In this document: piece by piece, positions 9,760 to 41,623 of the stretch
Layout: the number at the start of each line of letters is the position of its first letter
Numbering within the stretch: position 1 is the stretch's first letter
NCBI GenBank assembly: GCA_019448385.1
Contig: JAGTXO010000033.1
Span: 201,001-265,000, forward strand
From: Diacronema lutheri
Lineage: Eukaryota > Haptophyta > Pavlovophyceae > Pavlovales > Pavlovaceae
DNA: 64,000 bases
Direction: 5' to 3'
Notes under the pieces: model-generated
The model's input: the letters and a program-made list of their open reading frames with translations, nothing else
What the model was told of the DNA's origin: nothing
Database searches by the model: none
Translations under genes and position numbers: made by a program

Positions 9760-9793
<34 letters not shown>

Positions 9794-12024: not shown

Positions 12025-12120
12025 GGTGCGTGATGGACGGCGTGCGGGTCACAGAGGTTGGACGATTTCGCTCCTGTCAATGGCCTCCTTCCCAGGTTTC
12101 AAAAGGGGCGGAAAATTGGG
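12025..12120. promoter_or_regulatory. Divergent promoter region, CEP44-like / mitochondrial carrier
   Basis: Only 96 bp separate the two start codons, so both promoters and 5' UTRs must overlap here or extend into genes. A lower-GC patch lies at about 12055-12120. No core element is recognisable. Confidence 0.35.
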
Positions 12121-13278: not shown

Positions 13279-13490
13279 CAGCACGGCAATGGGGGTCGAG
13301 GTTCAGCTGAGCCATTGCCCTTGGCCGACTGAACGGCACGCGGACGACAGTAGCCACTTGCTGGCGCTGGCGCCGACCCCGCCAAAGGCCACGGCAGCGC
13401 GCCGCTTTGCGAAGCGTCGTCGACGGTTTGCCGGCACCGTATGCCCGGTGGTGGCGCAGAGCGCGACGGAGGGACCAGCATCCGCGCGGG

Positions 13491-13691: not shown

Positions 13692-13904
13692 CGCTGGCGG
13701 GCGTCGCGCGTACTTTCGCGACAATGGCGCCCGGCTGGAACTTTTACAATGCGTTGTGAGTAATAAGTTCTGGCCTGGCGTAAAAGATATATTGGAACAT
13801 AAAAGATAAAAGCCCTCGACGGTCGGCAGCCCCGGAGTACGCGGCGGTTGGAGTCGAGGAGCCCGGCGTCGTCACGCGCCGTCCGCGGCTGAAGGCGCCA
13901 AGCC
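13692..13904. promoter_or_regulatory. Divergent promoter region with AT-rich core
   Basis: The 213 bp between the SMIM20-like gene and prefoldin 6 contain a marked AT-rich patch (about 13755-13812) including GATATATT and ATAAAAGATAAAAG, which stands out in this GC-rich window and may be a TATA-like core promoter for prefoldin 6. Confidence 0.45.
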
Positions 13905-14463
13905 ATGGCCGAAATCGAGGGCGAGATCACAGTATTCCGCCAGATCCAGAAGGGTGCGCTGCCGCGCACGAGGCTGTGCGGGCAGAGCGCGCGTGCGCAC
14001 GCGTTCCTCACGGTTGGTGCGCCTGCCGCGTGGGCGCGCGCGCGCAGAGCTGGAGCGCGCGATCAATCTGAAGCACCAGGCGTTGTCGCAAGTGGGGGAG
14101 AATGAGATGGTCGTTGCTGAGCTCCAGTTTCTCGAGGAGGATGCCAAGGTCTTCAAGCTGATCGGCCCCGTGCTCGTGCAGCAGGACGTCGTTGAGGTGA
14201 AGGCCAACGTGAGCACTCGGATCGAATTCATCAAAAAGGACATGGCCAAGATCGACGCGCAGATCAAGGACTACGAGAAGAAAGCGGAGGAGCAGCGCCA
14301 AAAGGTGCGCGCGCCGCCGCGCTGCTGCGCCGTGCGAGCGCGCGGCGGGCGCTTGGCCGTGCCTCGGCTGTGCTCGCGGCTCATGCGAGCGATTGCTGCG
14401 CGGTGCGGCCACGCGACGCGGCAGGTGATGCGCATGCAACAAAGCAAGGCCGCCGCGCAATAG
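13905..14463 (+). CDS. PFDN6: Prefoldin subunit 6
   Basis: Three exons (13905-13953, 14048-14304, 14425-14463) give 114 residues, close to the usual size of beta-type prefoldin subunits. Exon 1 encodes MAEIEGEITVFRQIQK; exon 2 carries LERAINLKHQALSQVGENE, then VFKLIGPVLVQQDVVE, the conserved hairpin of PFDN6; exon 3 encodes VMRMQQSKAAAQ. Both helices are coiled-coil-like. The protein is part of the hexameric prefoldin chaperone, which hands unfolded actin and tubulin to CCT in the cytosol. Both introns start GTGCGC and end CAG, and both joins are in phase. Confidence 0.92.
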
Positions 14464-14510
14464 AGTCAATTGTTCTCTGACTGGGCCGATGAGCCAGGAT
14501 TGCGATCATG

Positions 14511-14662
14511 TACTAACGACGCTTCCGACGGGTCAACAGATGGGGTCAGGAAGTGCGGGGTCAGGAAGTGCGCAGCGAGGCGCCAGGCGGAGCAGGCCCA
14601 AAGGCCCACACGCGCCTAGCCACCGCGCGCCGCCGCCCGCGCGCCGCCGCACCGGTGGCCGC
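14511..14662 (+). repeat. Dispersed repeat, copy A
   Basis: This 152-bp segment matches 36538-36675 in inverted orientation almost perfectly. Copy A has an internal 15-bp tandem duplication (GGGTCAGGAAGTGCG) missing from copy B; copy B has one extra T; one substitution is seen. It lies between the 3' ends of two genes. ATG flanks it on both sides, possibly a 3-bp target duplication, but that is weak. Confidence 0.85.
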
Positions 14663-14682
14663 ATGGGCGCCCCATACATGCC

Positions 14683-20522: not shown

Positions 20523-20581
20523 ATGTCACTGCTCCGTGACGGGTGTTTCGTGCTGCAACGCGGTGCTACAAAACGTCCAGC
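20523..20581. promoter_or_regulatory. Very short divergent promoter region
   Basis: Only 59 bp (or 122 bp if the OmpA-FABP gene starts at 20459) separate two divergent start codons. The sequence is less GC-rich than its flanks. Shared promoter function is inferred from arrangement. Confidence 0.35.
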
Positions 20582-23221: not shown

Positions 23222-23267
23222 TGATGGACGGGCGCTGTTTTGAGTGCTTTCCAGACTTCTCAAGTTG

Positions 23268-26200
23268 TCATGCAGTTCGTCTCTGACCGCCGCGGCCGCC
23301 CCTGCCGCCCGTGCCCTTGCCACTGCGCATGCGCTCGACGAGCTGCGCGATGGGCAGCCCGGCGTTCTGCCGCTCGTGGAAGTTGGGCTCGAACCCCTCC
23401 AAGTTGAGGTGCAGTCGAAAGTTGAGCGGCGCGCCGCACTGCACGGACGCGCGGTGCGCAAACGGGCCAGGCAGGCGCGGCGCGCCCTGGCGCGTGCTGT
23501 TCAGCCAGCGGCCGTAGAGCAGGGCGCGCGCGGCGTCGGAGAAGGAAGACGGCTGAGAGAGCAGCACATGGCGCGAGAGCGAGAGCAGCGAGATCTCGAC
23601 GAGGCCGAGCGCCTGGCATGGCGCGGAGCGCGAGTCAACCGTGCAGCCGGCCGCACGCGCGCACGGCACGTGGTCGGTGATCGAGCCGACGCGCGCGGCG
23701 CCGACGGCGGCGCGCAGGCCGTTATAGCATGCCGCGTCATCGCACGCGACGTAGAAGCGCGCGCCGCCGCCCGTCGCGCGCACAAGCCGCCGCATCGTTG
23801 CCGCAAAGTAGCGCCAATGGCACGCACGCCTGCGCGTCGCGTATGCCTCCGCCGCCTCTGCGGAGTCCATAGCAAAGTGCGAGGCGGCGACGGCGGCGGC
23901 GGTGGTGGCGGTGGTGGCGCGCGCGTCCGTCGAGACGCCGACGCCGCCGCCGCTGCCGCCGGTCGGCCCCGCCTCCACGCCGAAGACGGTGCTCGTGTGG
24001 TCTGTGGTCATGCGCACGTGCACGCCGACGCGCAGCCGCAGCAGCGCCTCGCGCGCGATCTGCTGCACGAGCGCACCGAGTTCGGCGCGCGGACGGAGCC
24101 ACGCGAAGCGCTCGGCGTACGCCTGCAGCGAATGGCGGCGCACGCGCGAGCGGAGCAGCTGCTGCGTGCGCACGTACACGTTCGTGCCCGTCGAGTGCGC
24201 GCGCGTGAGCATGGGCATCGCGTCGCCGGGGTCGTACTCGGCCCACGCCCTCGTCGGCCACGCGGCGGGCTTTGCCGAGAGCGTGATGAAGCGCTCGTCG
24301 GGCGCGAAGAGCTCGTCGAAGCGCGCGTCGCACTCGGTGTTGGGCTCCCACACGATGGCGTACGCATAACCGAGCGCGTCCGCGAGCGCCCAGCCGGACG
24401 CGAGCGCACGCAGACGGTTGCCCAGGCCGCCCTCCACGTGCACGACGAGGAGTGGGCGCGCGCGCGACGCGTATGCGCTCCACGTCGCCCACGCCGCCGC
24501 CTCCGCGCTGCGCGACGTGCAACCGCCCGACGGTGGCGCGTCGGCGAGGGCCTCAACGTCGGCGACGAGCGCGTCGCGCTCTGCGACGCCGACGCCGTCC
24601 GCGCGCCGCTCGGCGAGGGCGACGACGTGGCCGACGAGGCCCCAGCGGCACGAGCCGTCGATTCCCGCGCCCGCGCGCGCGCGCACGAGCAGCGCGACCT
24701 CGCGCTCCGCGTCGAGGCTGCTCGTGTGTACGGCGGTTGTTGCGTTGGCGTCGCAGCGCGCGCCGCCGCCGGCGCCGTCGTCGTCGCTGGCGGCGGCCGT
24801 CGCGTTCGAGGCGCGCGCGCGCAGCGCACCCGCGACCGAGTCGAGCTTGGCTACGGCCGCCGGCCCGACCCGCCACCAGCGCGCCCAGCCGCGCGCGGGC
24901 GCGCGCGCGCACGCGCCGGGCGGACACGGCAGCCATTGTGGCGCCACGCTGAGCGCCTCGAGTGCAGAGGCGAGGTAACGGTCGGCGTGCGGCGCGGACG
25001 CGACTGCCTCCGACAGGCCGCGCGCCGCGTGCCACAACGCCGCGGGCATGAGCAGCCCCGCCGACGCGGCCGACGCGAGCGCGCGCGTGTCGCAGGCGCT
25101 CGACGGCGCGCCGGCTGGGAGCGCGCACGCGCGCACGAGGAAGGCGCGCAGCCCGCCCGCGCGCGGCGCGCCGAGCGCCGTCGGCGCAAGCGCGCTCGCC
25201 GGCTCGCGCGCCACGCGCGCGCCGAGCAGCGCAGCGAAGAAGGGCTCGACGAACTGCGCGCCGAACGACGCGGCGAGAATCAGCTCGGCGCACGCCGCGC
25301 GGATGCCGACGTTGAGCGCGGCGGTCTCGAGCGTGCGCACTGCGCGCGCGTACCTGCGCAGCGTGCGCTCGTGCGACGCGCCGCGCACGCGCACGACGCG
25401 CACGCGCAGCGCGTCGCGCAGCGCGGCGGGCAGCTCGGGCGGCAGGACGGACGGCGCGCGCGCGCCCGCGCTGTCATGCCACGCCACGGCGACGAGCTCG
25501 AGGCGCAGCGCGGCGCGCGCCGCGCCCGTCGCGAGGTTGAGCGCCAGCTCGTCGAGCTGCTGCTGCACGTCGATCGCGGCGCGCGCGCCGCGCGCGGCGC
25601 GCGCGCCGCCGCCGCCGTCGCCGTCGCCGCCGTCGGGCGCCGCGAGCAGCGCCAGCGATGCGCTCGCCCACGTGCAGCTCACGACGATCGACGCGTCGAT
25701 GCGCAGCGCGTCGCGCCACGCGCGCACCGCGCGCGAGAAGGCGCCGTCCCCACGCGCGGCAAGCGCCGCGCGCGCGACGTCGGCGGGCACGGCGGCGGGC
25801 GGCTGCTCTGGCCGGACGCCGCGTGCGAGTGTATGCCACGCTGCAGGGAGCACCCACAGACCGCCGCGCCGCAGCCGCTGCGCGAGGGCACCGCCGAGCG
25901 CCGCGCGCAGCGCGCGCGCGCGCACGGCCGCCGGGCGCGGCGCGCAGCGCGCGACGAGCGCGGCGGCGGTGCGCGGCGCGCGCGCGCGCGCGGCGTCGGC
26001 AGCGTCGGCGGCGTCGGCGTCGGCGTCGGCGAGCACGCTGCCCGCGTCGGGCCCCTCGCAGCTCACGAGCCGCACGGCGTCGGTGAGGATCAGGAGTCGC
26101 ACCTCCGCCCCGCCGCCGCCGCCACCGTCGCCACCCGCGCCGTCCGCGCCGTCCGCGCCGCCCGGTGGCAGGCGAAGGGCCACGACCCACCCACCGAGGC

Positions 26201-28229
26201 CACCTTTCGCCACATCCGGCGACAGCCGCGACCAGACGGCGTCGCGCGCGCTGTCGAGGAGCGCGTTGAGCGCGCCCTCGTCACCACCCGCCGTCGGCCC
26301 CTCGCGCACCGCCCACGCGAGCAGCCGGCGCGCGCCCTTGGTCGGAGACCAGCGTGCGAGCGCGAGCGCGAGCCGCGCGCGCACGTGCGCGGCCGTCGCG
26401 GGCACGCCCGGGCTCGCGCGCGTGCGCGGCGCGGCGAGCGCGACGAGGTCGGCGCGCGCCACCGCCGCCGCGCGCGCGAGCGCGCCCGCCACGTCCGTCC
26501 CGCCCCACAAAGCGTCGGGCTCTGCGAGCACGACCGCGTGGCCCTCGCCGACGAGCGCGGCGGCCACCTCGGCGCGCTCCACGCGCACGCCGTCGCGCGC
26601 GCCGTCGCCCTCGTGGTCGCGCGTGCCGCCGTGCGCGACGAAGCGCGGGATCAGCGGGAACGCCGGCGCGCCGAGCGCGCCGAGCGCGTCGAACTCGGCC
26701 CAGCCCTCCGCGCCGATAAGCAAGCGCCCGCCCCACTCGACCGGCAACACATCCGTGTTGCCCTCTACGATGGCGGCGGCGCGGCGCGGCGCGGGCAGCG
26801 CGGCGAGGAGCCAGTTGAGGCACACGTCCAGCTCGCCCGCCGCCGCGCTGACGAAGAGCACAGGATCCGCACGTTCCAAATCCGCGCGATCCGCCGCGCC
26901 GTGTGTCGCGCCGTTGCCGCCGCCGCCGTCGCCGCGCGCCGCGCGTTCGGCGAGGCTCGGCGGCAGCGGCGCGCGGCCGCGCGCGAGCGCGAGCGCGAGC
27001 TCGTCGCGCGAGTGGCACGGGCGCGGCGGCGCATGCCCGAGCGCTCTGGCCGTGTGCCCGAGCACCGCCCACACGCGGCACACCGCCAGCTCGCTCCACG
27101 CGTCGGCAGCGCGCACGTACGGTTCGGCGCCGTGCCCTGCCGCAGCCGAGCGCTTGATCGAGCGGTCGGTGCGGTTACACGCCTGCGCGATGCGCCAGCC
27201 GTACGCGCCCTCAGCCTCGCCGCCCGCCACGCCCGCCACGCCGCCGCCCACCGGCGGCGCGAGCCAGCTCAACACGCGTCGCAGCGTCGCCTCGCACCGC
27301 GCGGACAGGTCGGCGAAGGGCACGAGCGCGACCGCACCGGACGCACCGGCGGCGGTGGCGGCGGCGGCGTCGCGCGGCGTCGCGCCGCGCGCGGCCGCGG
27401 CCGCGGCCGCGCCCGCCGCGCGGCCCACGTCGCGCGCGAAGGACAGGTGCGACGTGATCGACGCGACGTAGCCGGCGGCTGCGCGCTCCGCCGAGCGCAG
27501 CCAATGACGCTCGTCGAATTCGGCGGGCCGCACGCGCGCGACGTGCCCGCCGTTGTCGCCCTCGACGAAGCGGCGCTGGAACTCGGACCAGATCGCGCCG
27601 TACGGCTCGCGGTCGATCACGAGCGCGCGCTCCGCCCGCCAACGGGCGCACTTGCCTAAAAAGTTGCGGAAGGTCAGGTGCACGAGACGCTTGCCAGGCG
27701 CGTCGGTCAGCCCACCGTGCCACGGGATGGAGCGGCGGACGCCGGCGACTGCAGGCCTCGCCCAGTAGCGGAGCAACTCGAACGGTGTGTGCACCGCGTG
27801 CGCCTTCACCACGAGCACGTCCGGCGCGCAGTGCCGCTCGGCCGGGAAGATGCCGAGTAGCGAGTTGTCGTTGTACACCGAACCCGTTGCAAAGTCGGTC
27901 GCCGTCTCGAGCATCTGGCGCATCCACGTGTTGCCGCTGCCCGGGAAGGACCAGAGCACGGGCGGCGACCAATTGCACGCCAGCGGCACCAGCGCGCGCG
28001 ACGGCCCCGTCCCATTCGGATCGAGCGCACGCGGCGGCTGGATCCGCGTGCGCGCCGCAAACGCATCCGCGTCGCACGGCGTCGCGCCACGGAAGCGCTC
28101 GGGCGCGTCGGCCCAAAGCGAGAGCGCGCGCAGCTCGGCGCTTGTGTCGCCGCGCGCGCCCGCCGACCAGGCCAACACCACCATGGCGGCGAGGCTCAGC
28201 GCGAGGCCGCTCGCCGGCGCGCACATCAT
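23268..28229 (-). CDS. Three-domain sulfotransferase / glycosyltransferase, secretory pathway
   Basis: A single exon of 1653 residues starts MMCAPASGLALSLAAMVVLA, a signal peptide or anchor. Residues 90-330 carry a WSCD-type sulfotransferase fold: LWSFPGSGNTWMRQMLE is the PAPS-binding loop, followed by GSVYND, FPAERHC and VLVVKAHAVHTP. A middle region (about 470-720) has VLFVSAAAGELDVCLNWLL and GDEGALNALL, as in nucleotide-diphospho-sugar transferases of the PF03407/GT77 kind. The C-terminal 400 residues contain HVEGGLGNRLRALASGWALA and later GVHVRMTTDH and FYVACDD, a fucosyltransferase-like pattern. The protein would act in the Golgi on glycans, adding sugars and sulfate; acceptor and donor are unknown. 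The frame remains open far upstream antisense to the next gene, but the signal peptide sets the start. Confidence 0.72.
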   Translation of the reverse strand: MMCAPASGLALSLAAMVVLAWSAGARGDTSAELRALSLWADAPERFRGATPCDADAFAARTRIQPPRALDPNGTGPSRALVPLACNWSPPVLWSFPGSGNTWMRQMLETATDFATGSVYNDNSLLGIFPAERHCAPDVLVVKAHAVHTPFELLRYWARPAVAGVRRSIPWHGGLTDAPGKRLVHLTFRNFLGKCARWRAERALVIDREPYGAIWSEFQRRFVEGDNGGHVARVRPAEFDERHWLRSAERAAAGYVASITSHLSFARDVGRAAGAAAAAAARGATPRDAAAATAAGASGAVALVPFADLSARCEATLRRVLSWLAPPVGGGVAGVAGGEAEGAYGWRIAQACNRTDRSIKRSAAAGHGAEPYVRAADAWSELAVCRVWAVLGHTARALGHAPPRPCHSRDELALALARGRAPLPPSLAERAARGDGGGGNGATHGAADRADLERADPVLFVSAAAGELDVCLNWLLAALPAPRRAAAIVEGNTDVLPVEWGGRLLIGAEGWAEFDALGALGAPAFPLIPRFVAHGGTRDHEGDGARDGVRVERAEVAAALVGEGHAVVLAEPDALWGGTDVAGALARAAAVARADLVALAAPRTRASPGVPATAAHVRARLALALARWSPTKGARRLLAWAVREGPTAGGDEGALNALLDSARDAVWSRLSPDVAKGGLGGWVVALRLPPGGADGADGAGGDGGGGGGAEVRLLILTDAVRLVSCEGPDAGSVLADADADAADAADAARARAPRTAAALVARCAPRPAAVRARALRAALGGALAQRLRRGGLWVLPAAWHTLARGVRPEQPPAAVPADVARAALAARGDGAFSRAVRAWRDALRIDASIVVSCTWASASLALLAAPDGGDGDGGGGARAARGARAAIDVQQQLDELALNLATGAARAALRLELVAVAWHDSAGARAPSVLPPELPAALRDALRVRVVRVRGASHERTLRRYARAVRTLETAALNVGIRAACAELILAASFGAQFVEPFFAALLGARVAREPASALAPTALGAPRAGGLRAFLVRACALPAGAPSSACDTRALASAASAGLLMPAALWHAARGLSEAVASAPHADRYLASALEALSVAPQWLPCPPGACARAPARGWARWWRVGPAAVAKLDSVAGALRARASNATAAASDDDGAGGGARCDANATTAVHTSSLDAEREVALLVRARAGAGIDGSCRWGLVGHVVALAERRADGVGVAERDALVADVEALADAPPSGGCTSRSAEAAAWATWSAYASRARPLLVVHVEGGLGNRLRALASGWALADALGYAYAIVWEPNTECDARFDELFAPDERFITLSAKPAAWPTRAWAEYDPGDAMPMLTRAHSTGTNVYVRTQQLLRSRVRRHSLQAYAERFAWLRPRAELGALVQQIAREALLRLRVGVHVRMTTDHTSTVFGVEAGPTGGSGGGVGVSTDARATTATTAAAVAASHFAMDSAEAAEAYATRRRACHWRYFAATMRRLVRATGGGARFYVACDDAACYNGLRAAVGAARVGSITDHVPCARAAGCTVDSRSAPCQALGLVEISLLSLSRHVLLSQPSSFSDAARALLYGRWLNSTRQGAPRLPGPFAHRASVQCGAPLNFRLHLNLEGFEPNFHERQNAGLPIAQLVERMRSGKGTGGRGGRGGQRRTA

Positions 28230-28311
28230 CCGAACCGGGTCGCGCCAAGGTTGGAGAGGGGAAGGAAAACGCCACAACGGCCGGCTGGGCCGCGGCCGCC
28301 GCGCGGCGCGC
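28230..28311. promoter_or_regulatory. Divergent promoter region
   Basis: 82 bp separate the start codons of the sulfotransferase/glycosyltransferase gene and the coiled-coil RING-like gene. It includes a purine-rich patch (about 28252-28272). No core promoter motif recognised. Confidence 0.35.
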
Positions 28312-30360
28312 ATGTCCATCTCGGGGCTCAAGGGCGCACGCGAGCTGCGCGGCTCGCGGCAGGCGTCGCTCGAGCGCCTGCCGCTCGCCCGGCCGGCGAA
28401 TGCGGGCAGCTTTGCGACCACGTCCGCTTCCGGCGCGGCGTGCGCGGGCGCGGCGGGCGCGGCGCTCGGCGCGGCGAGCGACCGGCTGAGCAAGCTCGCG
28501 GTGCTCTCGTCGGCGGACAAGGAGCTGATCCTGCAGCTGCAGCTCAAGATCGACGAGCAGAACGCCGAGCTCGACTCGCGCTCCGCGTCCGTCGGCGCGA
28601 TCCAGCGCAACTTTGAGGACCTCTCTGCCCTCGTCCAGCGCGAGCGCTCCGAGCTCGAGCGGCTGCGCGGCGCGCACAAGGCGGCGCTCGCGGAGAAGGC
28701 GGAGCTGCTCGCGCAGCTCGGCGCGCAGCACCGCGCCGCTGCCTCCGCCAGCGACGCCGTCGACGCCGCGCGCGCCGACGCGGCCGCGCGCGCCGACGCG
28801 GCCGAGGCGGCCGCTGCCGAGCTGCGCGCCGCCGCCGACGCGCTCCGCGCGCAGCTCAAGGCGGCCGCGCACGGCAAGGGCGTCGCGGACGCGCAGGCGG
28901 ACGCCGCGCGCGAACGCGAGCGCGCCGCGCACGCCACCGCCGCCGCCGCCGAGCGCGCGCGCGCCGAGGCGGCCGCGCGCGCGGACGCGGCGGACGCGGC
29001 GCGCGCCTCCGCCGACGCGGACGCGCGCGGCGCGAGCGAGCGCGAGACGCGCGCGCTCGCGGATGCGGCGGCGGCGCGCGCGCAGGCAGAGGCGGCGCTC
29101 GCGGATGCGGCCGCCGCGCGCGCGCGCGCCGACGGCGGCGTCGACGCGGCTGGCGCCGCGCTGCGCGCAGCGCGCGCCGACGCGGCAGCGGCGCGGCGCG
29201 AAGCGGCGGACGCGGCGGCCGCGCGCGCGCTCGCCGCGCGCCAGCTCGACGCCGCGCGCGACGAGACGGCGCGCGAGCTGCGCGCCGCGCTCGACGCGCG
29301 CGACGCCGCGCTCGACGCCGCCGCCGTCGCGCGCGCTGCGGCCGCCACCGCCGACGGCGCGGCGGCGGACGCGCGCGCGTCCGCGGCGGCGGACGCGGCG
29401 GACGCGCGCGCGTCCGCCGCCGACGCGCGGCGCGCGCGTGACGAGCTGGCGGCGGAGCGCGCGGCGGGCGCGGCGCGGCAGCGCACGACGGCAGGCATGG
29501 ACGAGTCGCTCGCGCGCGCGCTCGGCGAGGCGCGCGAGCTGCGCGCGGCGCTCGGTGCGGCCGATGCGCGCGCGGCCGGCGCGGAGCGCGCGCTCGCCGA
29601 CGCGTCCACGCTCGCCAACGCGCGCGCGGCCGAGCTCGCGGAGGCGCGCGCGGAGGCGGACGGGCTGATGGCGCGGCTGGCGCGGGCAGAGGCTGCGCTC
29701 GCCGAACTGCGCGACGCGCGACACGCCGACGCCGTTGCGGCCGCGGCGGCCGCGCGCGACGCGAGCGCGCGCGAGCGCGACGCGCGCGACGAGGCCGCGC
29801 GGCTCGTCGCGATCCGCACGTCGACGGAGGGCATGCTGCGCGCCGCGGAGGGCGAGCGGGCCGCGGCGGAGGCGCGTGTGTCGCTGCTCGACGCCGAGCT
29901 CCGCCGCGTGGGCGGCCGCGTCGCTGAGTCGGACGCGCGCGACGGCGAGCGCGAGCGCGCCGAGAGCGCCTTCCAGCAACGGCTACGCGCGCTCCTCAAG
30001 CGCGAGGCCGAGTTCTCCGTCGCGCTTGCGAAGGTGACCAACTCGGCGGGCGCGGTTGAGGCGGCCCTCACCTGCCTCGGATGCATGCGCCTGCTCCGTG
30101 GCGGCGCCGTTCGGCGCGGCTGCGGCCATGCGCTCTGCGGTGAATGCGCGGCGGGCGCGGCCGCGCGCGCGGACGGCGGGCGCTCGCCGTCAGAGTGCGC
30201 CGAGTGTGGCGACGCTTCGGAGCTCGTCGTGCTGCCCATGATCGACGAGCTTGCTGCAAAGTTTGGCTACCAGAAGCAGGCGATGGCCGCGCTTCCGCCG
30301 CTCGGCGAGCTCGGGCGTGCAGACAGCCTAGGCAGCGTCGGCGCGGCTGCTGCGCGCTGA
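28312..30360 (+). CDS. Coiled-coil protein with C-terminal RING-like zinc finger
   Basis: A single-exon frame of 682 residues. After a short N-terminal tail, residues 65-570 are predicted coiled coil, beginning with LILQLQLKIDEQNAELDS and continuing as an extremely Ala/Arg/Asp/Glu-rich heptad region. The C-terminus has CLGCMRLLRGGAVRRGCGHA followed by LCGEC and later CAEC, spaced like a RING or RING-like finger (CxxC...CxHxxCxxC...CxxC). This architecture recalls coiled-coil RING E3 ligases such as Bre1, but flagellar coiled-coil proteins can look alike and the finger lacks other specific motifs. E3 ubiquitin ligase activity is inference. The Ala bias of the coil follows from the high GC content. 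Confidence 0.72.
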   Translation: MSISGLKGARELRGSRQASLERLPLARPANAGSFATTSASGAACAGAAGAALGAASDRLSKLAVLSSADKELILQLQLKIDEQNAELDSRSASVGAIQRNFEDLSALVQRERSELERLRGAHKAALAEKAELLAQLGAQHRAAASASDAVDAARADAAARADAAEAAAAELRAAADALRAQLKAAAHGKGVADAQADAARERERAAHATAAAAERARAEAAARADAADAARASADADARGASERETRALADAAAARAQAEAALADAAAARARADGGVDAAGAALRAARADAAAARREAADAAAARALAARQLDAARDETARELRAALDARDAALDAAAVARAAAATADGAAADARASAAADAADARASAADARRARDELAAERAAGAARQRTTAGMDESLARALGEARELRAALGAADARAAGAERALADASTLANARAAELAEARAEADGLMARLARAEAALAELRDARHADAVAAAAAARDASARERDARDEAARLVAIRTSTEGMLRAAEGERAAAEARVSLLDAELRRVGGRVAESDARDGERERAESAFQQRLRALLKREAEFSVALAKVTNSAGAVEAALTCLGCMRLLRGGAVRRGCGHALCGECAAGAAARADGGRSPSECAECGDASELVVLPMIDELAAKFGYQKQAMAALPPLGELGRADSLGSVGAAAAR

Positions 30361-30548
30361 GCGGCGCGCCGACGGCTGCTGGGATTTTGAATGCCGGGCG
30401 CCCCGCCGCCACGCTTCCTTCTGTGCGCTCAAGATGGGGCATGGCGGGGAAAGGAAGAAGAGATGCGATGTTTTCTTTTTTTTTTCTTTGGGCATAGCCA
30501 GCGTAGAGTGACTCGAAGGGGGCCAGAAGATGGTCTCGGGCCACCTGC

Positions 30549-31385
30549 TCATCGCAGTGAGCGCACCTCTTGGTGATCCCCCAACCTGGCCGTCCGCCGA
30601 AAGCTGCTGAGGACGACGTCGTGGGTGCGTCCCTCCCATTCGGTCGGCACGACGCGCTCCGCCTCTCGCACGCCCTCCGGCGCAAAGCCGCACGCGAGCA
30701 TCGCCTCGCGCAGACGCGGACGGAACGGGCGCGTGGCAAGGTCAGCCAGAACAAACCGCCCGTCCGGCCGCAGCACGCGCCGCACCACCGCCGCGACGTG
30801 CTCTGCGGCGCCAGCCTCGTAGATCACATCGGCAGCGACCACGAGCGAGTACTCGTGCGCCGGCCAGCGGTGCGGCTCGGTCCAGTCGAGCTGCGCACTG
30901 TCGACAAGGTGGCCCACGCCGTTCTCCACGGCCGACGCAAGCCCAAGCTCCACCGCCACCGGGTCGTGGTCGACAAGTGTCACGCGCGCAGCGCGGCCGG
31001 TGAGCGCGGCCGCGATGCCGCACAACCCGAGCCCCGCGCCGAGCTCGAGCACGGCGTCGCCGTCGGCCACACGGCCGCGCGCGCCGAGGTCCCGCGCGAG
31101 CCCGACCGCTGCCGGCCAGACCACGCCGTAATAGGGTGTGCGCCCGCCGAACGCCTCCTCGTGCTCGACGTACGCGTCGAGGAGCCGGTCGGCGCACGCG
31201 GGCGTGTAGAGCGTGATGGCCGCGTCGCGCGCGGTGGGCACGGCGAGCTCAGCGAGGCCAACGTGATGCACAACCAAGCGCATCGCCGCGCTCTCGCCCG
31301 CGCCGCCACGCAGCGCACGCGCGCGCGGCAGCGCGGCGGTCGTGAGCACCGCGGCGAGCCGGCCGGCGACCCGCATCGTGGGCAT
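30549..31385 (-). CDS. METTL21-type protein methyltransferase
   Basis: A single-exon frame of 278 residues from ATG at 31385. After about 50 residues comes a class I SAM-dependent methyltransferase of the METTL21/METTL23 (family 16) type: motif I LELGAGLGLCGIAAAL, an acidic VTLVDHDP for the ribose, DWTE, and the family's post-motif VAADVIYE (DxxY). Members methylate lysines of chaperones and elongation factors in the cytosol; the substrate here cannot be told. The N-terminus MPTMRVAGRLAAVLTTAALP could be a weak signal or transit peptide. It is divergent from MANF with only 42 bp between start codons. Confidence 0.82.
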   Translation of the reverse strand: MPTMRVAGRLAAVLTTAALPRARALRGGAGESAAMRLVVHHVGLAELAVPTARDAAITLYTPACADRLLDAYVEHEEAFGGRTPYYGVVWPAAVGLARDLGARGRVADGDAVLELGAGLGLCGIAAALTGRAARVTLVDHDPVAVELGLASAVENGVGHLVDSAQLDWTEPHRWPAHEYSLVVAADVIYEAGAAEHVAAVVRRVLRPDGRFVLADLATRPFRPRLREAMLACGFAPEGVREAERVVPTEWEGRTHDVVLSSFRRTARLGDHQEVRSLR

Positions 31386-34779: not shown

Positions 34780-35976
34780 TTACACCGCGGTCGCAGTCGG
34801 AGGCCGGTTGTCCCCCGCTGAGTCGAGCAACAGACGCGCGACGACGGCGGCATGGTCGGTCGCCAAAAGGCCGGTGCGTGCGTGCCGAGGGCGCAGCGCC
34901 TCGCACGCGCCGTCGAAACGAACCGCGCCGCCGCCACCGCCGTCCTCGCCGCCCGCCGCGAGCAGCCACGCGTGGTCGACCGTCCGGCCGCCATGCGTCC
35001 GCGGCCACGCGCCCGCGCGGCGCGGCGCGAGGTCGGCGGGCGCACCGGGCGCCCAGCCGTTGATGGCGGCCGGCGCGCCCGGCTCGGTAAGCGCGCCAAC
35101 GAGTGCCGCCCACTCGCCCTCGCCCTCACTTTCGCCACCGCCAGTGCCGCCGTCGCCGTCGCGCCCGCCGCAGCCGGCCGGCGGCGCCACGTTGAAGTCG
35201 CCGCACAGGACGAGCGCGCATGCGCGCTCGGGGGGCGCGCGCGCGAGCGCGCCGCGCGCCGCGCCGCCTAGCTCAGCGAGCTGCGCCGTCTTGGCGCATC
35301 CCGACCGCTTGTCGAGGTGCGCGACGCAGATGACCACCGGACTTGCCGCGCCCGGCGGGTGCACGAGCGCGACGAGCGCGCCCTTGCGGTTGAGGCGCTC
35401 GCGCGTGCGCGCAAAGGTGAGCGAGCGCACCGTGTCGAGTGGCCATCGGCTGAAGAGCGCCAGTCCAGAGTTGTGCCCGAAGAAGCGCGGGAGCGACGCG
35501 TCGGGCGCCGAGCGGTGCAACAGGCCGGCCGCTGCCATGCGCTCGGCGAAGCGCGCCCACGCGCCGCGCAGGACGAGCGGGCCGACGCGCAGCACGAAGA
35601 GCTCCTGCACGCTGACGATGTCCGCGCCCGCGAGCGCGTCCGCGATCGCGTCGAGCCGCGCGCCAAACGGCACCATGGGCATGAGCGCGGGCGCGCGCGG
35701 TGGCGCGCGGCGCCAGCACGCGCGCGGCGAAGGGACGAGCGATCGGAGCGCGGCGAAGTGGTGGCACCAGACATTCACCGAGACGAGCCGCACGGCGTGC
35801 GGCAGCGGCGTCGGCGGCTGCAGCGACGCGGCGGGCAGCGCGGCGGCGGGCGGCGCATCGGAGGCCGGCGCGGCGCCGGCCGGCGCGGCTACATTGCGCG
35901 CACCTGGCGCGTCGCGCGCGGCCGTCGTGTCGTGCGCGCGCAAAAGCGGCGTGCGCGCATCCGAGGGCGGCGCCAT
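34780..35976 (-). CDS. Endonuclease/exonuclease/phosphatase (EEP) family hydrolase
   Basis: A single-exon frame of 398 residues starting MAPPSDARTPLLRAHD. The EEP fold is shown by LVSVNVWCHH (first metal-ligand Asn), IVSVQELF (metal-binding Glu), GHNSGLALFSRWPL, CVAHLDKR, VLCGDFNVAPP (the D-x-N motif) and the terminal TVDHAW with LLATDHAAVVA. The S-x-H in SDH appears here as TDH. The layout is that of neutral sphingomyelinase/DNase-I-like enzymes: divalent-metal-dependent phosphodiesterases. Substrate (lipid, nucleic acid or nucleotide) is not decidable. The N-terminal 55 residues are Ala/Pro-rich and contain a LLRAHD-type dileucine-like sequence. Confidence 0.82.
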   Translation of the reverse strand: MAPPSDARTPLLRAHDTTAARDAPGARNVAAPAGAAPASDAPPAAALPAASLQPPTPLPHAVRLVSVNVWCHHFAALRSLVPSPRACWRRAPPRAPALMPMVPFGARLDAIADALAGADIVSVQELFVLRVGPLVLRGAWARFAERMAAAGLLHRSAPDASLPRFFGHNSGLALFSRWPLDTVRSLTFARTRERLNRKGALVALVHPPGAASPVVICVAHLDKRSGCAKTAQLAELGGAARGALARAPPERACALVLCGDFNVAPPAGCGGRDGDGGTGGGESEGEGEWAALVGALTEPGAPAAINGWAPGAPADLAPRRAGAWPRTHGGRTVDHAWLLAAGGEDGGGGGAVRFDGACEALRPRHARTGLLATDHAAVVARLLLDSAGDNRPPTATAV

Positions 35977-36673
35977 CGTGGCCACGAATATTTAAATGCG
36001 CTCCGCGCGCCCCGCCGCCCCTGCCCATCGACTGCGCCGGCACCGCGAACAACGTACTTTTCGCCCCGGTCGGTGGGTTTGGGGGTGGCGGGGCGCGCGC
36101 GCACGGCCGCACGAGCGACGGCGGCGTGGCCTTCTCTACGACGAAACCTTCGCTTGCGACGGCTGCGCCCTCGCGCTCTGCTGGCCGCGCTCCGCGCGCC
36201 CCGCCGCCCCTGCCCATCGACTGCGCCGGCACCGCGAACAACGTACTTTTCGCCCCGGTCGGTGGGTTTGGGGATGGCGGGGCGCGCGTGCGCGGCCACG
36301 CGGCCAGCATCGCGGCGCTTGCCACGCTGGCGGCGGGTGGCGGTACGCTTCGCGGCGGCGGCAGGGGGCTGCGACGCGGCGGGGAGGGCGGCGGCTCGCT
36401 GGCGGCGGGCGTCGCGCTCTGCAGCGGCGGCGGGCGGCTTGGCGACGTGGCAGGCGGCGGCTCGGGGGTGGCGGTCGTCGCCGACGATCTTCGGGCCTCG
36501 GCGTGCGCGTGCGCGTCGGCCGGTGGTGTGATTGACGGCGGCCACCGGTGCGGCGGCGCGCGGGCGGCGGCGCGCGGTGGCTAGGCGCGAGTGGGCCTTT
36601 GGGCCTGCTCCGCCTGGCGCCTCGCTGCGCACTTCCTGACCCCATCTGTTGACCCGTCGGAAAGCGTCGTTAG
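35977..36673. other. Intergenic region with tandem duplication and dispersed repeat B
   Basis: This stretch upstream of the Fanzor gene contains the 189-bp-period tandem duplication, a Gly/Ala-codon-like GC-rich segment (36300-36530) open in some frames but without a good start, and dispersed repeat B. I could not support a gene here. It may contain the promoter and 5' exon(s) of the Fanzor gene. Confidence 0.45.
35998..36298. repeat. Tandem direct duplication, 189-bp period
   Basis: The segments 35999-36100 and 36188-36289 are nearly identical over about 100 bp (shared core GCGAACAACGTACTTTTCGC), differing for example by G versus A in GGGGGTGG/GGGGATGG. The 85 bp between them differ. Both copies lie just upstream of the EEP gene start. 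Confidence 0.85.
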
Positions 36674-36675
36674 TA
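36538..36675 (-). repeat. Dispersed repeat, copy B
   Basis: This 138-bp segment is the inverted, nearly identical partner of 14511-14662. It ends exactly at the start of a TATAAAA sequence (36674-36680) and abuts the open frame of the Fanzor gene. Confidence 0.85.
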
Positions 36676-36680
36676 TAAAA
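36674..36680 (+). promoter_or_regulatory. TATAAAA box candidate upstream of the Fanzor frame
   Basis: A consensus TATAAAA is rare in so GC-rich a sequence. It sits at the junction of dispersed repeat B and the Fanzor reading frame, and would place transcription start near 36705. Confidence 0.4.
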
Positions 36681-37003
36681 GTTGGTCTCCCCGAGGAAGA
36701 GAGCTAAAGGACGGCCTCCGGAGGCGTCTTCCACAACTGCCGCCGCGCCCGGTCGGGCTGCTCGTCGCCGACCGGCCGACGGACGACTCGCGCCCGGCCG
36801 CGCTCGTGCGCTACGACTTTGCGCCGCTCGACGCGGACGTGGCCGTCGCGGTCGGCGCGCATGCCGTCGCGCTGGCCAGTGCGATCTGGCCGCTGCTCGC
36901 GGCCGAGGGGGAGCCGCGGCCATCGCCCGTCGTGCGCTCGCAGCCGCGCGGCGGCGACGATGGCGCGCGTGCGCTCGCAACGTTCGCGTGCCTCGACGCG
37001 CTG

Positions 37004-40000
37004 ATGACCGCCAGCGTCGGCGCGCACGGCCTCGCGGGCGGCGCGGGCATGCTGCCCGCGCTGGTCGCGCGAGGCGCCGCGGCCGCCCAGCGCGAGCGGC
37101 AGCTGCGCGCGGCCGCCGAGAGGCTGGGCGGCACGGTCGCTGGGTGGCCGGACACGGGCGCGAGCGCGGCGGGCGCGAGCGTCGACGAGGAGGCGCGCAC
37201 GTACGAGGTCGAGGCGGTCGTCGACGAGCGCCGCAAGGCGGGCAAGAAGGTGACGTTCCAGTTCCGGATCAGGTGGCGGGGCTACGACGAGAGCGCCGAC
37301 ACGTGGGAGCCTGAGGCCAACGTGAGCAGCGACCTCGTCGCCCAGTTCCGCAAGACGCGCGACGAGCAGAAGCGGCGCGCGGGCGTATCGGGCAGCGGCA
37401 GCGGCGGCGCGGGCGCGGCGTCGGCATTGGCGTCGGCGCCGCTTCGCGCGCACGGCGAGTCGGGCGCCGCGGGCAAGCGCGCCGCGGCGGGTGCCGCCGC
37501 GAGCGCGCGCGACGCCGCGGGCGCGCGCGCGCCGAGCGTTCCCCGCGCGCGCGGCGTCGAGCGCGCGCGCGTGGACGAGCCCGCTGCGCCGAGCGCGCGC
37601 GCCGCCGGCGGCGCGACGGCGCGCACGCGCGGCAGCGTGCTCCCGGGCTTCGTGGTCAAGCGCTCGACGCTCAACGCGGGGCCGCAGGCGGTGACGGCGC
37701 AGCCCGGTGCGCGGAAGGAGCTGCGGCGCATCGCGGCGGCCGTGCACAGGCTCACGACACAGGCGTACCGCGTCATCAACAAGGTGGTGCGCGACGAGGC
37801 TGCGGTGGCGAGCGCGCAGGCCGTCGGCGCGGCGTCGGGCGGCCCGTCGACCAGCGTGCACACGTCGACCACGATGGACAAGGGAACCGTCCGTGCGATC
37901 TTCTCGGCCATCGGCTGGCACAAGGACGAGAGCACGTACGGTGCAGCGCCCCGAGGCAAGCCCGCCGAGCAAGCCGCCGCGCAGACCAAGGCGGCGACGG
38001 CGCGCGCCGTCGGCGAGATGGCCGAGGGCGTCCAGCCCGTCTGCGCGGTGGGCCTCACGGAGATCCTCGAGGCGGAGGCGACGCAGGTGTCCACCGCGTG
38101 CCTGATGCATCCATCGCGCGTCGTGAACGGGCTGCTCCGCGACGTCGTCCGCGCGGCAGTCGAGCGCGACGAGGCGCTCGTCGCGCTGCCCGAGATGCAG
38201 CGAAACGCGCGCGTGCGCGAGCTGTGCGAGCGGCTGCTGCGCGGCGACGTGGAGGGCGCGCGCGTCGGCTGCCCCGCCGCGCTCGACCGCCACCTGCCCG
38301 ACATGGTCCTCCACAAGATCGACTACAAGTGCACGCCCACGAAAAGGTGGAACTACGACCGGCACACGACGCGCTACTTCCTCGTGCAGATCCGCACCCT
38401 GCAGCACGTGGCCGAGGGGCAGGCGCTGCTCTGCCGGCTCGCGCACATCCACACGCAGCTGACCGGACGGCCGCCGCGGTACAATGTGGCGCCGCTGCGC
38501 ACGCACAATGTGCGCGCGAGGCGTGGCTGCCGCTGCCGCCGCCGAGCGCCCAAGCGCGCGCGCCGCCGCCGTGCGCGCCGCCCCGCGGCCAGGTTGGTCA
38601 CGCGCCCGCGCGCTCGCGCGCCGCGCGCTGCGCGCAGGTGCCGCGCAACGTGCGCCTCGCCGCGAGCGCCATCTGGGTGACGCTTTCGGATGACGAGCGC
38701 AAGGAGCTGCGCGCGCGGCTCAAGGCGCTGGACCTGCGCGACCACGATGGCGAGCCGATCAAGTGGACAGGCACAAACGGCAACACCCCGCCGATGTCGG
38801 ACGTGCGCGTCAGGTACGCCGTCTTTGCGACGCGCTTCGACATCTCCAACCGCGTCTTCGACTACGCCGGGCGCGAGCGGCCGCCGGCCGATCTGCCGTG
38901 GCACGCGCGGCGCTCGTGGGTTGGCCTCGCGCCGCTGCCGCGCGTGCCGCTCCCGGGCCGGCAGCCCGTCAAGTCGGTGGTGACAGATGGCGTCGCCGTG
39001 CACGCCGTCGGGACCGTCCTCGTGCCGAAGGCGCAGGCGCCGGCCGGCGGCTCGGGCGTCCTGCACCGCTGGCGCCGGCCGGACGGGCGCATCGCCGTCG
39101 CGCTCGGCTCCGAGCTGCGGCGGGCGATCGACGTCGAGGCGGCGGTCGTCGTCGCGGCCGACCCGAACATGGGCAACATCACCACCTACTCTGCGCACGT
39201 CGGGCGGGCGGCCGTCTGGCGGCAGTTCACGCAGCGCGCGCGCGCGCGCGCCGCGGGCTTTGCGCGCGAGACGGCCAAGACCAACGCGGCGCGGCGGCGC
39301 GTGCGCAAGGACGGGCGCGGCGAGGAGTTCAGCGTGGAGGCGGACGAGGCGCGGCTTGGCGAGGCGCACAGCGCCAAGGTGCTCGGCGAGGGCGAGTTCC
39401 ACGCCTTCCACCGCGAGAGCGCGCGGGTGCGCGAGCGCGCCGCCGAGCACGTGTACGACGCGCCGGCGCGCCGGAAGGAGCGCTGGCGGCGCGACAGCGG
39501 CGGGCGGTCCAACGCGGCGCGCGTCGCCGAGGCGCTCATCGCGGCGCACTGTGTCGACGGCGTGACGCGCGACCGGCTGCTCGTGTGCGTGGGCAAGTGG
39601 CTGCGCGACCACAAGGGCGCGCAGCCCAAGGGCGCGCCGCCCGCCTTCCAGGTGGGGCTGCTGCGCGAGCTGCGGCGGCGCGGCGTCGCGGCCGTCTTCG
39701 TGCCCGAGCCGTACACGTCGATGCACTGCTCGATGCCGCGGCTCGCCAAGGGCGGCAGGCTGCAGCGCTGCGGCGCGGAGCTCGCGCAGAACCCGCGCCT
39801 GCCCGTGGCAAAGGGCGGCACGCGCACGGTGCACGCGCTCGTCATCTGCCCGGCGTGCAACGGCGGCAAGAAGCCCGTGCACCGCGACTACAACGCCGCG
39901 CGCAACATCTTCTACGACGTGCACGACATGGCGGCGCACGCGGCCGGGCGCGACACCACGTCGACGCCTGAGCGCTTTGCCCTCGTGCTCGCCTGGTGGG

Positions 40001-40362
40001 CGCGCGGCGAGGTGTGGGAGCGTGAGGAGCGCATGGTGCACGGCGAGGGCGACGACTGCGACGACGAGTGCGACGGCGACGACGAGGGCGACGACGAGGG
40101 CGACGACGACGACGACGACGATGGCAGCGGCGACGGCGGCGGCGGCGAGGGCGACGCCGACGGCGACGGCGACGGAGGCGGCGGCGGCGACGACGACGAT
40201 GACGGCGGGGGAGGCGGCGGCGGCGACGGCGGTGGCGACGACGGCGGCGGGCGCGGCGGCGGTGGCGGCGGCGGCTCTCGCGCCCGCACCCCCGCCCGCG
40301 GAGCTGCCAGCGCCAGTGCCGGCGGCGGCAGCGCGCGCGGGCCGAAGCGCGGCCGGCGTTGA
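37004..40362 (+). CDS. Chromodomain-Fanzor (eukaryotic TnpB-like RuvC nuclease)
   Basis: Two exons (to 38509; 38638-40362) join in phase across a GTGCGC...GCGCAG intron. The first in-frame ATG is 37004 (1076 residues), but the frame is open from 36674, so the true start is unsure. Residues 67-115 form an HP1-like chromodomain: TYEVEAVVDERRKAGK, then FRIRWRGYDESADTWEPEAN, with all three cage aromatics (Y67, W91, Y94). The C-terminal half is Fanzor/TnpB: RuvC-I VVVAADPNMGN (D677), RuvC-II VFVPEPYTSMHCS (E859), a CPAC knuckle and RuvC-III VHRDYNAARNIF (D919). The first zinc knuckle looks incomplete (CSMP). A long Asp/Gly-rich tail ends in the basic RGPKRGRR. Fanzors are RNA-guided DNA endonucleases in the nucleus, often carried by transposons; no other transposase is seen here. 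The triad is intact. Confidence 0.85.
40040..40340 (+). repeat. Asp/Gly low-complexity coding tract
   Basis: About 300 bp of GAC/GGC/GGT codon repeats encode the acidic then glycine-rich tail of the Fanzor protein. Its trinucleotide nature makes length change in frame likely. Confidence 0.8.
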
Positions 40363-41112
40363 CGCACGGCCGAGCCGCGCAGCGGTCGACGCTTTGCGGG
40401 CTCTGCCCAGGTCGCGCGCGGCTGGCGACGCGTGCCGCGCGCGGCACGACCGTGCACGCCGCCACCCGTGGCCGAGCGCGCCGCACCAGCCGGCCCGCTC
40501 CAACCGCCGTGCGGATCACGGACGCTCGCTACGGCTCGTCGGCGCGCGTCACCTGCGCCGGCGGCCACGGCGCCGTCTGCTCCGGCCTCGTCGCGAGCAG
40601 CCCGACCGCTGCTCGCCGCCCGCACGCCGCCGCAGCAACGCTGCGCGTCGTGCTCCCCCGCTCGCCAAACGCGAAGAGCTCCCTCACAAGGACGTCCTTC
40701 CGAACGGCCCGCGCTGCACTCGGGGCGCGATCGTGCCCCTGATCGGATTTGGCTTGACCATCTATACTTGATCATTTCTCATGGTGTCACCTTTTCGCTC
40801 GCTCTCTTGCCGACTGCCAGGGAGCCACGCGATGCGGGAAGGGGGCTGGAACGGGCGACACCTTGATGTTGCTTGCGAACGGCGCGCAGAGCGAGCGGTC
40901 GGCTGCGGCGCTCAGAGCAACCGGCCGCTCTGCGCTCGCGACGGAGGGTCACACTTTTGCCTTGACCTTGGGCTCGGGCGCGCCAGAGCGCCTCGCCACG
41001 CTCCGCAAGCAGCTGGAACGCGGCATGGCAGGTGGCGAGAAAGCACGCGCGGCGAGGAGCGCTGGAGGGCGCGGGGTCGACCGCAGGCCACTGTGGAGGA
41101 AGAAAAGCCCAA
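40363..41112. other. Intergenic region 3' of the Fanzor gene
   Basis: About 750 bp without a supportable gene. The first 350 bp remain GC-rich and coding-like in one frame, which overlaps the Fanzor stop and lacks an own start; the rest, from about 40735, includes lower-GC patches (40735-40800). A guide RNA (omega RNA) for the Fanzor could lie here, since family members often encode it at or beyond the 3' end, but I see no repeat or structure that proves it. Confidence 0.4.
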
Positions 41113-41166
41113 TGGTTGTTAAGGGATTCGAACCCTTGCCCAGATGTCTGGAAGCGCGCCTAAAGC
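41113..41166 (-). pseudogene. Truncated tRNA-Leu 3' half
   Basis: This part of the left 88-bp copy carries the discriminator, acceptor 3' strand, T-arm, variable arm and half the anticodon arm of tRNA-Leu, but no 5' half. It cannot fold as a tRNA and is a duplication relic. Confidence 0.85.
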
Positions 41167-41190
41167 GACCGCAGGCCACTGTGGAGGAAG

Positions 41191-41194
41191 AAAA
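41191..41194 (-). terminator. RNA polymerase III terminator (TTTT)
   Basis: A run of four T on the minus strand begins seven bases after the tRNA-Leu 3' end, as expected for a Pol III terminator. Confidence 0.65.
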
Positions 41195-41200
41195 GCCCAA

Positions 41201-41284
41201 TGGTTGTTAAGGGATTCGAACCCTTGCCCAGATGTCTGGAAGCGCGCCTAAAGCGCTCTGTTTCGACCGCTCACACAAACAACC
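41201..41284 (-). tRNA. tRNA-Leu (anticodon UAG)
   Basis: The minus strand folds into a complete 84-nt type II tRNA: acceptor GGTTGTT pairs perfectly with AACAACC plus discriminator A; a 3-bp D-stem (TGT/ACA) with loop GAGCGGTCGAA; anticodon stem AGCGC/GCGCT with loop TTTAGGC, giving anticodon TAG; a long variable arm with stem CCAGA/TCTGG; T-stem AAGGG/CCCTT with loop TTCGAAT. The D-stem length and long variable arm fit leucine. No intron, no encoded CCA (only the usual A follows). It reads CUA codons, which must be rare in this GC-rich coding sequence. Confidence 0.95.
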
Positions 41285-41623
41285 ACCAAAGGTGAGTGAT
41301 TTCTGTGTACTTGAACGCCTTTTGTGAGAGGCAGACATGACCACAGCTCCGCAGCAAGCATCGCGACGACCTGGCGCGCAGCGTCGGTCGCCGGCGTGTT
41401 TGTGCGCCGCCTTCACCGCGAGCAGCGTGCTATCGCATCCGGCGCGAGCAGCGCGCCGTTGCCGCCGCACATCGCCGCGTCAAAACCGAGCAGCTCGACC
41501 GTGGTCGAGATGGCGCGCGCGTCACGGTGCGCGAGCGCGAGCGCGGCCGCGAGCGCGACGGCCGCGTCGACAGCCGTGAGCGCCCCCGCGGGCAGTCGAA
41601 ACTCTATACCGGGCTCAAGGCCG
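41285..41623. other. Gap between tRNA-Leu and the helical-repeat gene, with a gene fragment
   Basis: About 340 bp. The left third is lower in GC; the right part holds the diverged duplicate fragment described separately. Nothing else seen. Confidence 0.4.
41413..41580 (-). pseudogene. Diverged partial duplicate of the neighbouring helical-repeat gene
   Basis: On the minus strand this stretch reads AVDAAVALAAALALAHRDAR then TTVELLGFDAAMCGGNGALL, which clearly matches GIDASAALAAALAHRDARV and TAVELLGLIAAAGGGGGALL encoded at about 42795-42945. Only one or two helical repeats are copied and there is no start, so it is a fragment, or an alternative last exon. Confidence 0.65.

Follow-up and report, generated by a model that had tools for sequence, protein, structure and literature searches.

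A chromodomain and a Fanzor-type nuclease core at the C-terminus of a giant reading frame in a 31-kb mobile element of Diacronema lutheri

Fanzors, which occur in eukaryotic transposons and viruses, are RNA-guided endonucleases whose cutting may promote propagation of the elements that carry them, and their role for those elements is unsettled (PMC10432273; this and the other papers are cited by PMC number for passages of their text). The RNA of a Fanzor derives from the end of its element (PMC10711439), and the locus encoding SpuFz1 of Spizellomyces punctatus spans roughly 2.1 kb (PMC10432273). Among described systems, the Helitron2-type elements CRe-1, CRe-2 and CRe-3 of Chlamydomonas are likewise algal and carry an intron-containing Fanzor1 gene; copies that reach the consensus 5' end lack a target-site duplication, and 5'-truncated copies with intact 3' ends also exist (PMC3627910). 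Here we describe a Fanzor-type gene of the haptophyte Diacronema lutheri that lies in a stretch of 64,000 nucleotides (the window; positions 201,001 to 265,000 of contig JAGTXO010000033.1, or C13:201001-265000 in the numbering used below). A sequence-only reading of the window had proposed a Fanzor fused to an HP1-like chromodomain; we find that the two domains lie at the C-terminus of a giant open reading frame, the largest in a 31-kb mobile element.

The element differs from the CRe elements in its length of 31 kb, in the joining of its Fanzor to a chromodomain and a giant exonuclease-bearing frame, in the lack of a detected Rep and in the near-equal numbers of its two ends. Compared with Helitron and Helitron2 elements, a PIF1 helicase is present, whereas the Rep (HUH) domain joined to that helicase was not found in the frames scanned, which comprise all six frames at element positions 1-3400 and 5500-11800 (to 11874) and the long plus-strand open reading frames (ORFs) in the rest (3400-5500 and 11800-31039), searched with Pfam. 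The termini of such elements are TC...CTRR or asymmetric inverted repeats with a hairpin at either end; here TC...CTRR is absent, and a short hairpin lies near the right end. SpuFz1 (8gkh) and Parasitella Fanzor 1 (9cf0) resemble the protein by profile in the RuvC and zinc-finger region, whereas here the first RuvC motif is DPN and not DPG, a chromodomain lies N-terminal to the core, and both belong to a giant frame. A second Fanzor family in the same genome (L065/L068) also has DPG, unlike the DPN found here, and is alike in its TDG motif, its glutamate before the zinc finger (Ealt) and its C4 zinc finger. Giant eukaryotic transposons span tens of kilobases and hold several genes, a likeness to the 31-kb element, and the chromodomain of chromoviruses, a group of LTR retrotransposons, is tied to an integrase. 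Chromoviruses are alike in being mobile elements with a chromodomain, an accessory domain, in a polyprotein (PMC6338049); here, in contrast, the frames scanned gave no reverse transcriptase (RT) or integrase match, and the chromodomain is paired with an RNA-guided-type nuclease. What this locus adds, as predicted from sequence, is an RNA-guided-type nuclease, a resecting exonuclease and a histone reader in one frame, with a helicase in the same element. A literature search by title and start of abstract, of incomplete coverage such that prior publication is possible, returned no Fanzor-chromodomain fusion and no such element, and neither appears in passages of PMC3627910, PMC10711439, PMC10432273, PMC11423790, PMC6431247 and PMC6338049; the available text of the giant-transposon review (PMC6431247) contains neither "Fanzor" nor "chromodomain".

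The genome scanned comprises 43,492,796 bases in 103 contigs; the published NIVA-4/92 assembly is described as 43.503 Mb in 103 contigs, the longest of 3.042 Mb, with 73.25% GC (PMC8379373). Comparison of the copies in contigs C9 and C26 delimits one unit, C9:1127562-1158600, of about 31.04 kb and 76% GC, which serves as the reference copy and from whose left end element positions are counted. This unit is a recently amplified, transposon-like element with constant ends. In the 12 left junctions read, similarity starts at CTATATACGG and the flanks beyond are unrelated; ten of the 12 came from a search containing these bases, so that the finding is the unrelated flank and not the common start. 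The right end reads ...CCATCTATAC (CTATAC) in 21 of 23 copies with flank, with CTTTAC in copy C75t and CTA in C9, a tally without those copies that the end of a contig cuts off ahead of or inside the final bases. A constant CTATA is present at the left and at the right end and may belong either to the element or to its target. Patterns for the two ends, with at most two mismatches, match 249 left and 231 right sites, and the reversed-pattern controls match none. Among the 44 exact left ends in contigs C1-C43, 27 have a same-strand partner among the listed right ends and 17 are unpaired, and the paired lengths fall into classes: 13 at 30.96-31.08 kb, 5 at 29.1-29.2 kb, 2 at 26.0-26.5 kb, 6 at 21.4-21.6 kb and 1 at 12.7 kb. 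Inner markers at element positions 3630, 13046 and 24071 occur 147, 170 and 218 times, and straight lines drawn between the five counts give an abundance of about 5.91 Mb, or 13.6% of the assembly, a rough figure that does not count fragments lacking both end and inner marks. A search with the Fanzor exon yielded 76 listed copies out of 455 candidates, so that at least 76 are present, all listed ones being 99-100% identical. By these marker counts the element, with roughly two hundred copies, more than 200 left and right ends and many near-identical copies, makes up about one seventh of a compact 43-Mb genome and accounts for much of the repeat content of D. lutheri. The genome paper gives 22.9% repeats with long terminal repeat and LINE elements as the main annotated classes, and passages of its text do not name the 31-kb element (PMC8379373).

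Which proteins does this element encode? A PIF1 helicase is matched in two frames at about element 3367-5771 (Pfam E 1.7e-15 and 1e-24, C26 copy), followed by a UCH peptidase match at about 6869-8362 (E 4e-8, C26 copy). ORF1 (1,345 amino acids, element 11717-15751) has no match, and ORF2 (4,513 amino acids, element 15414-28952, equal to C9:1142975-1156513) contains an exonuclease domain and a chromodomain. The former, of lambda-exonuclease/YqaJ/RecE type, lies at about 23.8-24.3 kb of the element and matches a RecE-like PHROG with E 1e-15; the lambda-exonuclease family (E 1e-5) and YqaJ (E 0.013) both fall below their cut-offs. The chromodomain lies at 27.47 kb, near the C-terminus of the frame of about 4,500 amino acids, and is followed by an intron and the Fanzor exon to about 30.63 kb; in long copies chromodomain and Fanzor form the C-terminal fifth of the giant frame. 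The simple two-domain protein of the earlier proposal is not supported for the long copies, which carry both domains in this giant frame together with the exonuclease domain. Searching the genome with the Chromo model listed 150 matches, 4 of them in other genes and 146 in the family with nearly equal scores; for 102 of the 146 listed the surrounding open frame reaches 4,000 amino acids or more (4,470-4,620 for 69 of these), and for 20 it is shorter than 2,000. Throughout ORF1, ORF2 and the Fanzor exon, GC peaks at the third codon position in almost all 900-base windows, an exception starting at 18001. Nothing further was matched in the six-frame part of the Pfam scan. An impression from motifs of two Ulp1-like protease domains in ORF1/ORF2 was unsupported by PDB searches and Pfam and was dropped.

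A fundamental question is what moves such an element. One alternative, tentative in our judgment and yet a serious competitor, is that Fanzor and chromodomain are cargo, that a diverged transposase (a Helitron-like Rep, a tyrosine recombinase or a DDE enzyme) was missed by the profiles, and that the nuclease biases inheritance or suppresses rivals. Helitrons carry a PIF1-related helicase, and a PIF1 helicase is present in this element. None of nine copies shows an in-register target-site duplication of at least 3 bp, which also favors the cargo explanation, as do the 5'-truncated copies with intact 3' ends of the Chlamydomonas CRe Fanzor elements (PMC3627910). However, no known transposase or RT, HUH/Helitron Rep, tyrosine or serine recombinase or DDE match was found in the frames scanned, from which weak relatives could escape; the nine HxH motifs located in the element all failed to convince on inspection by eye; Helitron-type TC...CTRR termini are absent from the element ends; and the 249 5' and 231 3' ends are about equal in number, so that one-ended loss is not the rule. 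Searching with the joined flanks of nine copies found no empty target sites, and it revealed another repeat as the 5' flank of the window copy. LINE-like retrotransposition, hinted at by the shortened window copy with its exact 3' end, was rejected on the near-equal counts of the two ends, the length classes that retain both ends, and the missing RT match in the frames scanned.

Could the 31-kb unit instead be an integrated virus-like replicon and not a transposon? Large DNA viruses also have PIF1-type helicases and YqaJ-type exonucleases, and the large size of the unit would suit such an origin. Fanzors, moreover, occur in large DNA viruses (PMC3627910). We nevertheless consider a viral origin quite improbable: the Pfam and PHROG results contain no structural-protein match, a viral contig collection holds no close relative of the three pieces searched (the Fanzor exon, the PIF1 protein and the exonuclease region), and the more than 200 left and right ends with their deletion classes speak for a transposon.

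The chromodomain is of HP1/CDY type and occupies window positions 37202-37354 on the forward strand, where Pfam PF00385 matches the window protein with E 6.9e-13 over model positions 1-52 of 53 and is therefore nearly complete. For the C9 copy, PDB searches return chains 2dnt, 6v41 and 1kna, the nearest solved chains being CDYL (E 3e-9), CDY1 (1.5e-7) and HP1 (2.5e-7). The aromatic cage residues first numbered Y67, W91 and Y94 are present, together with the TWEP motif, as Y177, W201 and Y204 of the spliced translation of 1186 amino acids. Steering of the protein by methylated histones, as the sequence-only reading had suggested, is plausible and fits the intact aromatic cage.

The joining of the two domains is seen across the family: of the 76 Fanzor-exon copies listed, at least 60 are preceded on their own strand, at a distance of 1,427-1,438 bp, by one of the listed chromodomains, which bears out the proposed connection. 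Of the 16 unpaired copies, 11 are on contigs 85-100, where none is among the chromodomain matches listed, and 5 are elsewhere. In the window, exon 1 as kept in the shortened copy (36739-38509, forward) holds the rest of the giant frame, the chromodomain, a linker and what may be the N-terminal part of the Fanzor; its open frame, 36674-38677 (forward), equals the end of the 4513-amino-acid frame C9:1142975-1156513, and its first in-frame ATG is at 37004. Because the window copy is a 3' fragment of the 31-kb element, this ATG is not the start in long copies. A probable intron of 128 nt with GT...AG ends and phase 0 follows at 38510-38637 (forward), and chromodomain and Fanzor core are probably joined through it on one strand. 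The evidence consists of its splice ends, its substitution rate and the position of an insertion. Between C75t (98% identical) and C9 there are 7 changes in 128 intron sites compared with 62 in 3,691 coding sites (Fisher P 0.008), and in 14 of 60 linked chromodomain-Fanzor pairs the distance is 2 nt longer; an extra GC dinucleotide lies inside the intron in 8 of 8 copies, namely 7 of the 14 longer-spaced ones plus C88, the eight having been picked for the longer spacing or, in C88, for the same shorter frame of 633 amino acids. The intron proposed earlier is probable from its splice ends, phase, faster change in C75t and internal insertion, though not from a faster rate in copy C46, where the stretch carries 2 changes in 128.

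An improbable alternative is that the 128-nt stretch is unspliced, that ORF2 stops at 38680 and that the Fanzor has its own start, so that two separate proteins are made. The exons are in different frames, each of which runs on across the stretch, and exon 1 alone, tried as the Fanzor N-terminal half, has no significant match to the genome's other Fanzor family; both observations would fit separate proteins. The GT/AG ends and in-phase joining, the faster change in C75t (again not shared by C46) and the 2-nt insertion within the stretch in all eight picked copies argue for the spliced joining. The coding frame itself is under selection in the older copies. For C75t against C9, 14.7 synonymous changes are expected and 26 are observed, next to 36 others (0 of 2,000 simulations reach 26), and the old copy L070 (C49:215000-216000; 90% identical in the aligned Fanzor part) differs by 20 synonymous and 24 other changes with 12.6 synonymous expected (P 0.0055). 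In L070 the RuvC exon immediately follows the beginning of the chromodomain region, owing to a deletion.

Exon 2 (38638-40362, forward) encodes the Fanzor C-terminal half, with TDG motif, RuvC domain and C4 zinc finger, and then an acidic and glycine-rich tail. The catalytic residues first given as D677, E859 and D919 are present as D787, E969 and D1029 of the spliced 1186-amino-acid translation. The RuvC-I aspartate D787 (39160-39162, forward) stands in DPN instead of the usual DPG, the RuvC-II glutamate E969 (39706-39708, forward) lies six residues before the zinc finger at the Fanzor (Ealt) position, and the RuvC-III aspartate D1029 (39886-39888, forward) stands in HRDYNAARN. A Cas12f1-like TNB/zinc-finger region at 39670-39909 (forward) matches Pfam PF07282 with E 4e-6, over its cut-off. 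Bao and Jurka described the Fanzor1 motif D-X(125,275)-[TS][TS]xx-C4 zinc finger-X(5,50)-RD (PMC3627910), and all of its parts are found here: D787, a spacing of 184 residues, TSMHC, the C4 finger and RD at 1028-1029; the [TS][TS]xx-C4-RD core arises in 4 of 20,000 shuffles, with the C4 spacings chosen by the analyst. Ealt and TDG are described features of Fanzors or Fanzor1 (PMC10711439); the Ealt spacing appears here as E969-PYTSMH-C, and the TDG motif of the WED domain as SVVTDGVAV, aligned to SIQTDGKAA of L065. A profile of seven sequences, the window copy and six relatives from the same genome, matches Spizellomyces Fanzor 8gkh with E 7e-12 and Parasitella Fanzor 1 9cf0 with E 3e-4, while the window frame as a single query has no Fanzor-type match in the PDB, such that the match to solved Fanzors depends on the relatives in the profile. 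The NCBIfam guided_TnpB model gives E 0.085 only. The searches with Pfam PF07282 and with the profile against solved Fanzors agree with the Fanzor-type assignment made at the outset, placing the C-terminal half inside the TnpB/Fanzor family and not outside it, the outcome set beforehand as refuting.

The TNB search also returned further Fanzor-like matches elsewhere in the genome. Across 332 aligned columns, the core of the second family (L065/L068, C1:154701) shows 26% identity; DPG, TDG, Ealt and C4 are all present in it, and in the 1,000 amino acids upstream in the same frame it shows no chromodomain or other Pfam match, being the sole other family read that far.

Our overall reading, to which we assign a probability of about one half, is that of a variant of a Fanzor-bearing transposon whose nuclease serves copying by repair, the mechanism being inferred. 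The protein would work like other TnpB/Fanzor nucleases, binding an RNA that is transcribed across the right end of the element and whose 3' part would be flanking sequence. The right end, about 400 nt at 40363-40767 (forward), is the candidate guide-RNA (omega RNA) scaffold, with a short hairpin at 40722-40739, 28 nt from the right end. A guided cut would then be made at DNA matching the flank, for example an allele or sister chromatid without the element, and would be fed into homologous repair with long DNA synthesis, copying the 31-kb element into the cut site and so giving retention or homing. We propose this repair-copy step because a resecting exonuclease lies in the same frame and the element has its own helicase. 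Through its chromodomain the complex would be held on chromatin that bears methylated histone H3, where silenced copies would lie, and the step to new unrelated sites may reside in the more than 3,000 amino acids of the giant frame that lack any match.

Several results weigh against this copy-by-repair reading. Copies are at unrelated sites, a pattern that homing alone does not produce, and the right end, 40603-40783, folds no better than shuffled sequences (z -0.15). DPG is given as a motif found "near exclusively" in Fanzors (PMC10711439), yet RuvC-I reads DPN here and DQN in the old copy L070, while DPG is present in the genome's other Fanzor sequences read through the motif (L065, L069, L073 and L075). 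ORF1 and ORF2 overlap in different frames, and the polyprotein, as one open frame plus one intron, is a construct of the sequence only. Structure prediction was poor, with a pLDDT of 36 from the single sequence and 41 from AlphaFold with a seven-row alignment; Foldseek matches of the latter model to Fanzor and Cas12f are consistent with the assignment and, given the poor model, may carry little weight. Synonymous changes are not in excess in C46 (synonymous/other changes 16/44, P 0.17), C37 (7/30, P 0.82) or C26 (9/39, P 0.65), which is expected for very recent copies, yet gives no support. The reference C9 has 9 exon-2 changes absent from most other copies, 7 of them non-synonymous, and these work against a synonymous excess in comparisons with C9.

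A new superfamily is possible and needs relatives. In its fullest form, this would be a superfamily of giant DNA elements that spread without a classical transposase, with nuclease, exonuclease and histone reader on a protein of roughly 5,000 amino acids, an element helicase, and host homologous repair copying 31 kb into chosen chromatin sites; we regard this stronger claim as unlikely. If true, it would mean that RNA guidance is layered with guidance by chromatin state. The element offers a natural system for testing a Fanzor's role for its element and the chromatin gating of an RNA-guided nuclease.

The copy in the window is a 5'-truncated one. It corresponds to element 27014-31039, runs from 36739 to 40764-40767 on the forward strand, and is 99.7% identical over 4026 bp to C9:1154575-1158600; these 4.0 kb lack the first 27 kb, and no other element piece over the score limit lies in the window. 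Its right end reads GGCTTGACCATCTATAC, as in other copies. On its left it abuts a different dispersed repeat of 752 bp (35998-36749, forward; 99.5% identical to C13:161780-162531), with about 11 bp in common (36739-36749), and this overlap suggests joining at short homology after the 27-kb loss as the likely cause. Within the 752-bp repeat, at 36663-36690, TATAAAAG and GCGTCGTTAGTAT adjoin, some 330 bp ahead of the truncated gene's first ATG.

Whether the locus is an element or a domesticated host factor was left undecided by the sequence-only reading; the mobile element is the better of the two, and the host factor fails on the many near-identical copies with constant ends. A domesticated gene could draw on the open frame for chromodomain and Fanzor that the window copy keeps and on the TATAAAAG stretch ahead of its first ATG, which lies in another repeat. 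Domestication is largely refuted by at least 76 copies at 99-100% and by 231 right ends, and the window copy is not special: it differs from C9 at 2 of the 1,771 coding sites that precede the intron and at 11 of the 1,722 that follow, and most other near-identical copies have 9-10 changes in exon 2.

Some further observations concern the element elsewhere in the genome. Stretches resembling CGYCGTTAGTAT were seen by eye close to the borders of several other copies. At element positions about 2000-2870, in C9 and C26, 0.87 kb also matches in the opposite orientation (92% over 877 columns), forming an inverted repeat inside the element. The elements in C26:1-36000 and C85:936288-940660 agree in their left flank for the roughly 80 bases that were compared; farther out, a 501-base piece is confined to these two contigs, so that C26 looks like a duplicated or allelic contig. 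Of the 100 right ends listed, at least 10 are no more than about 10 bases away from the edge of a contig, at the start of C1, C5, C6, C10 and C12 and at the end of C3, C8, C13, C32 and C33. Telomere targeting was considered and set aside, since the assembly probably broke at these positions because the repeat exceeds most reads in length (subread N50 23.5 kb; PMC8379373), and contig ends here may for this reason often not be chromosome ends.

Upstream of the 752-bp repeat, the reverse strand of the window encodes a protein of the endonuclease/exonuclease/phosphatase family (34783-35991, Pfam E 1e-9). On the other side, a tRNA-Leu gene lies at 41200-41285 (reverse strand), about 430 bp beyond the right end of the element. 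An 88-bp stretch is exactly duplicated in tandem at 41078-41253, and its second unit contains the 3' part of this gene.

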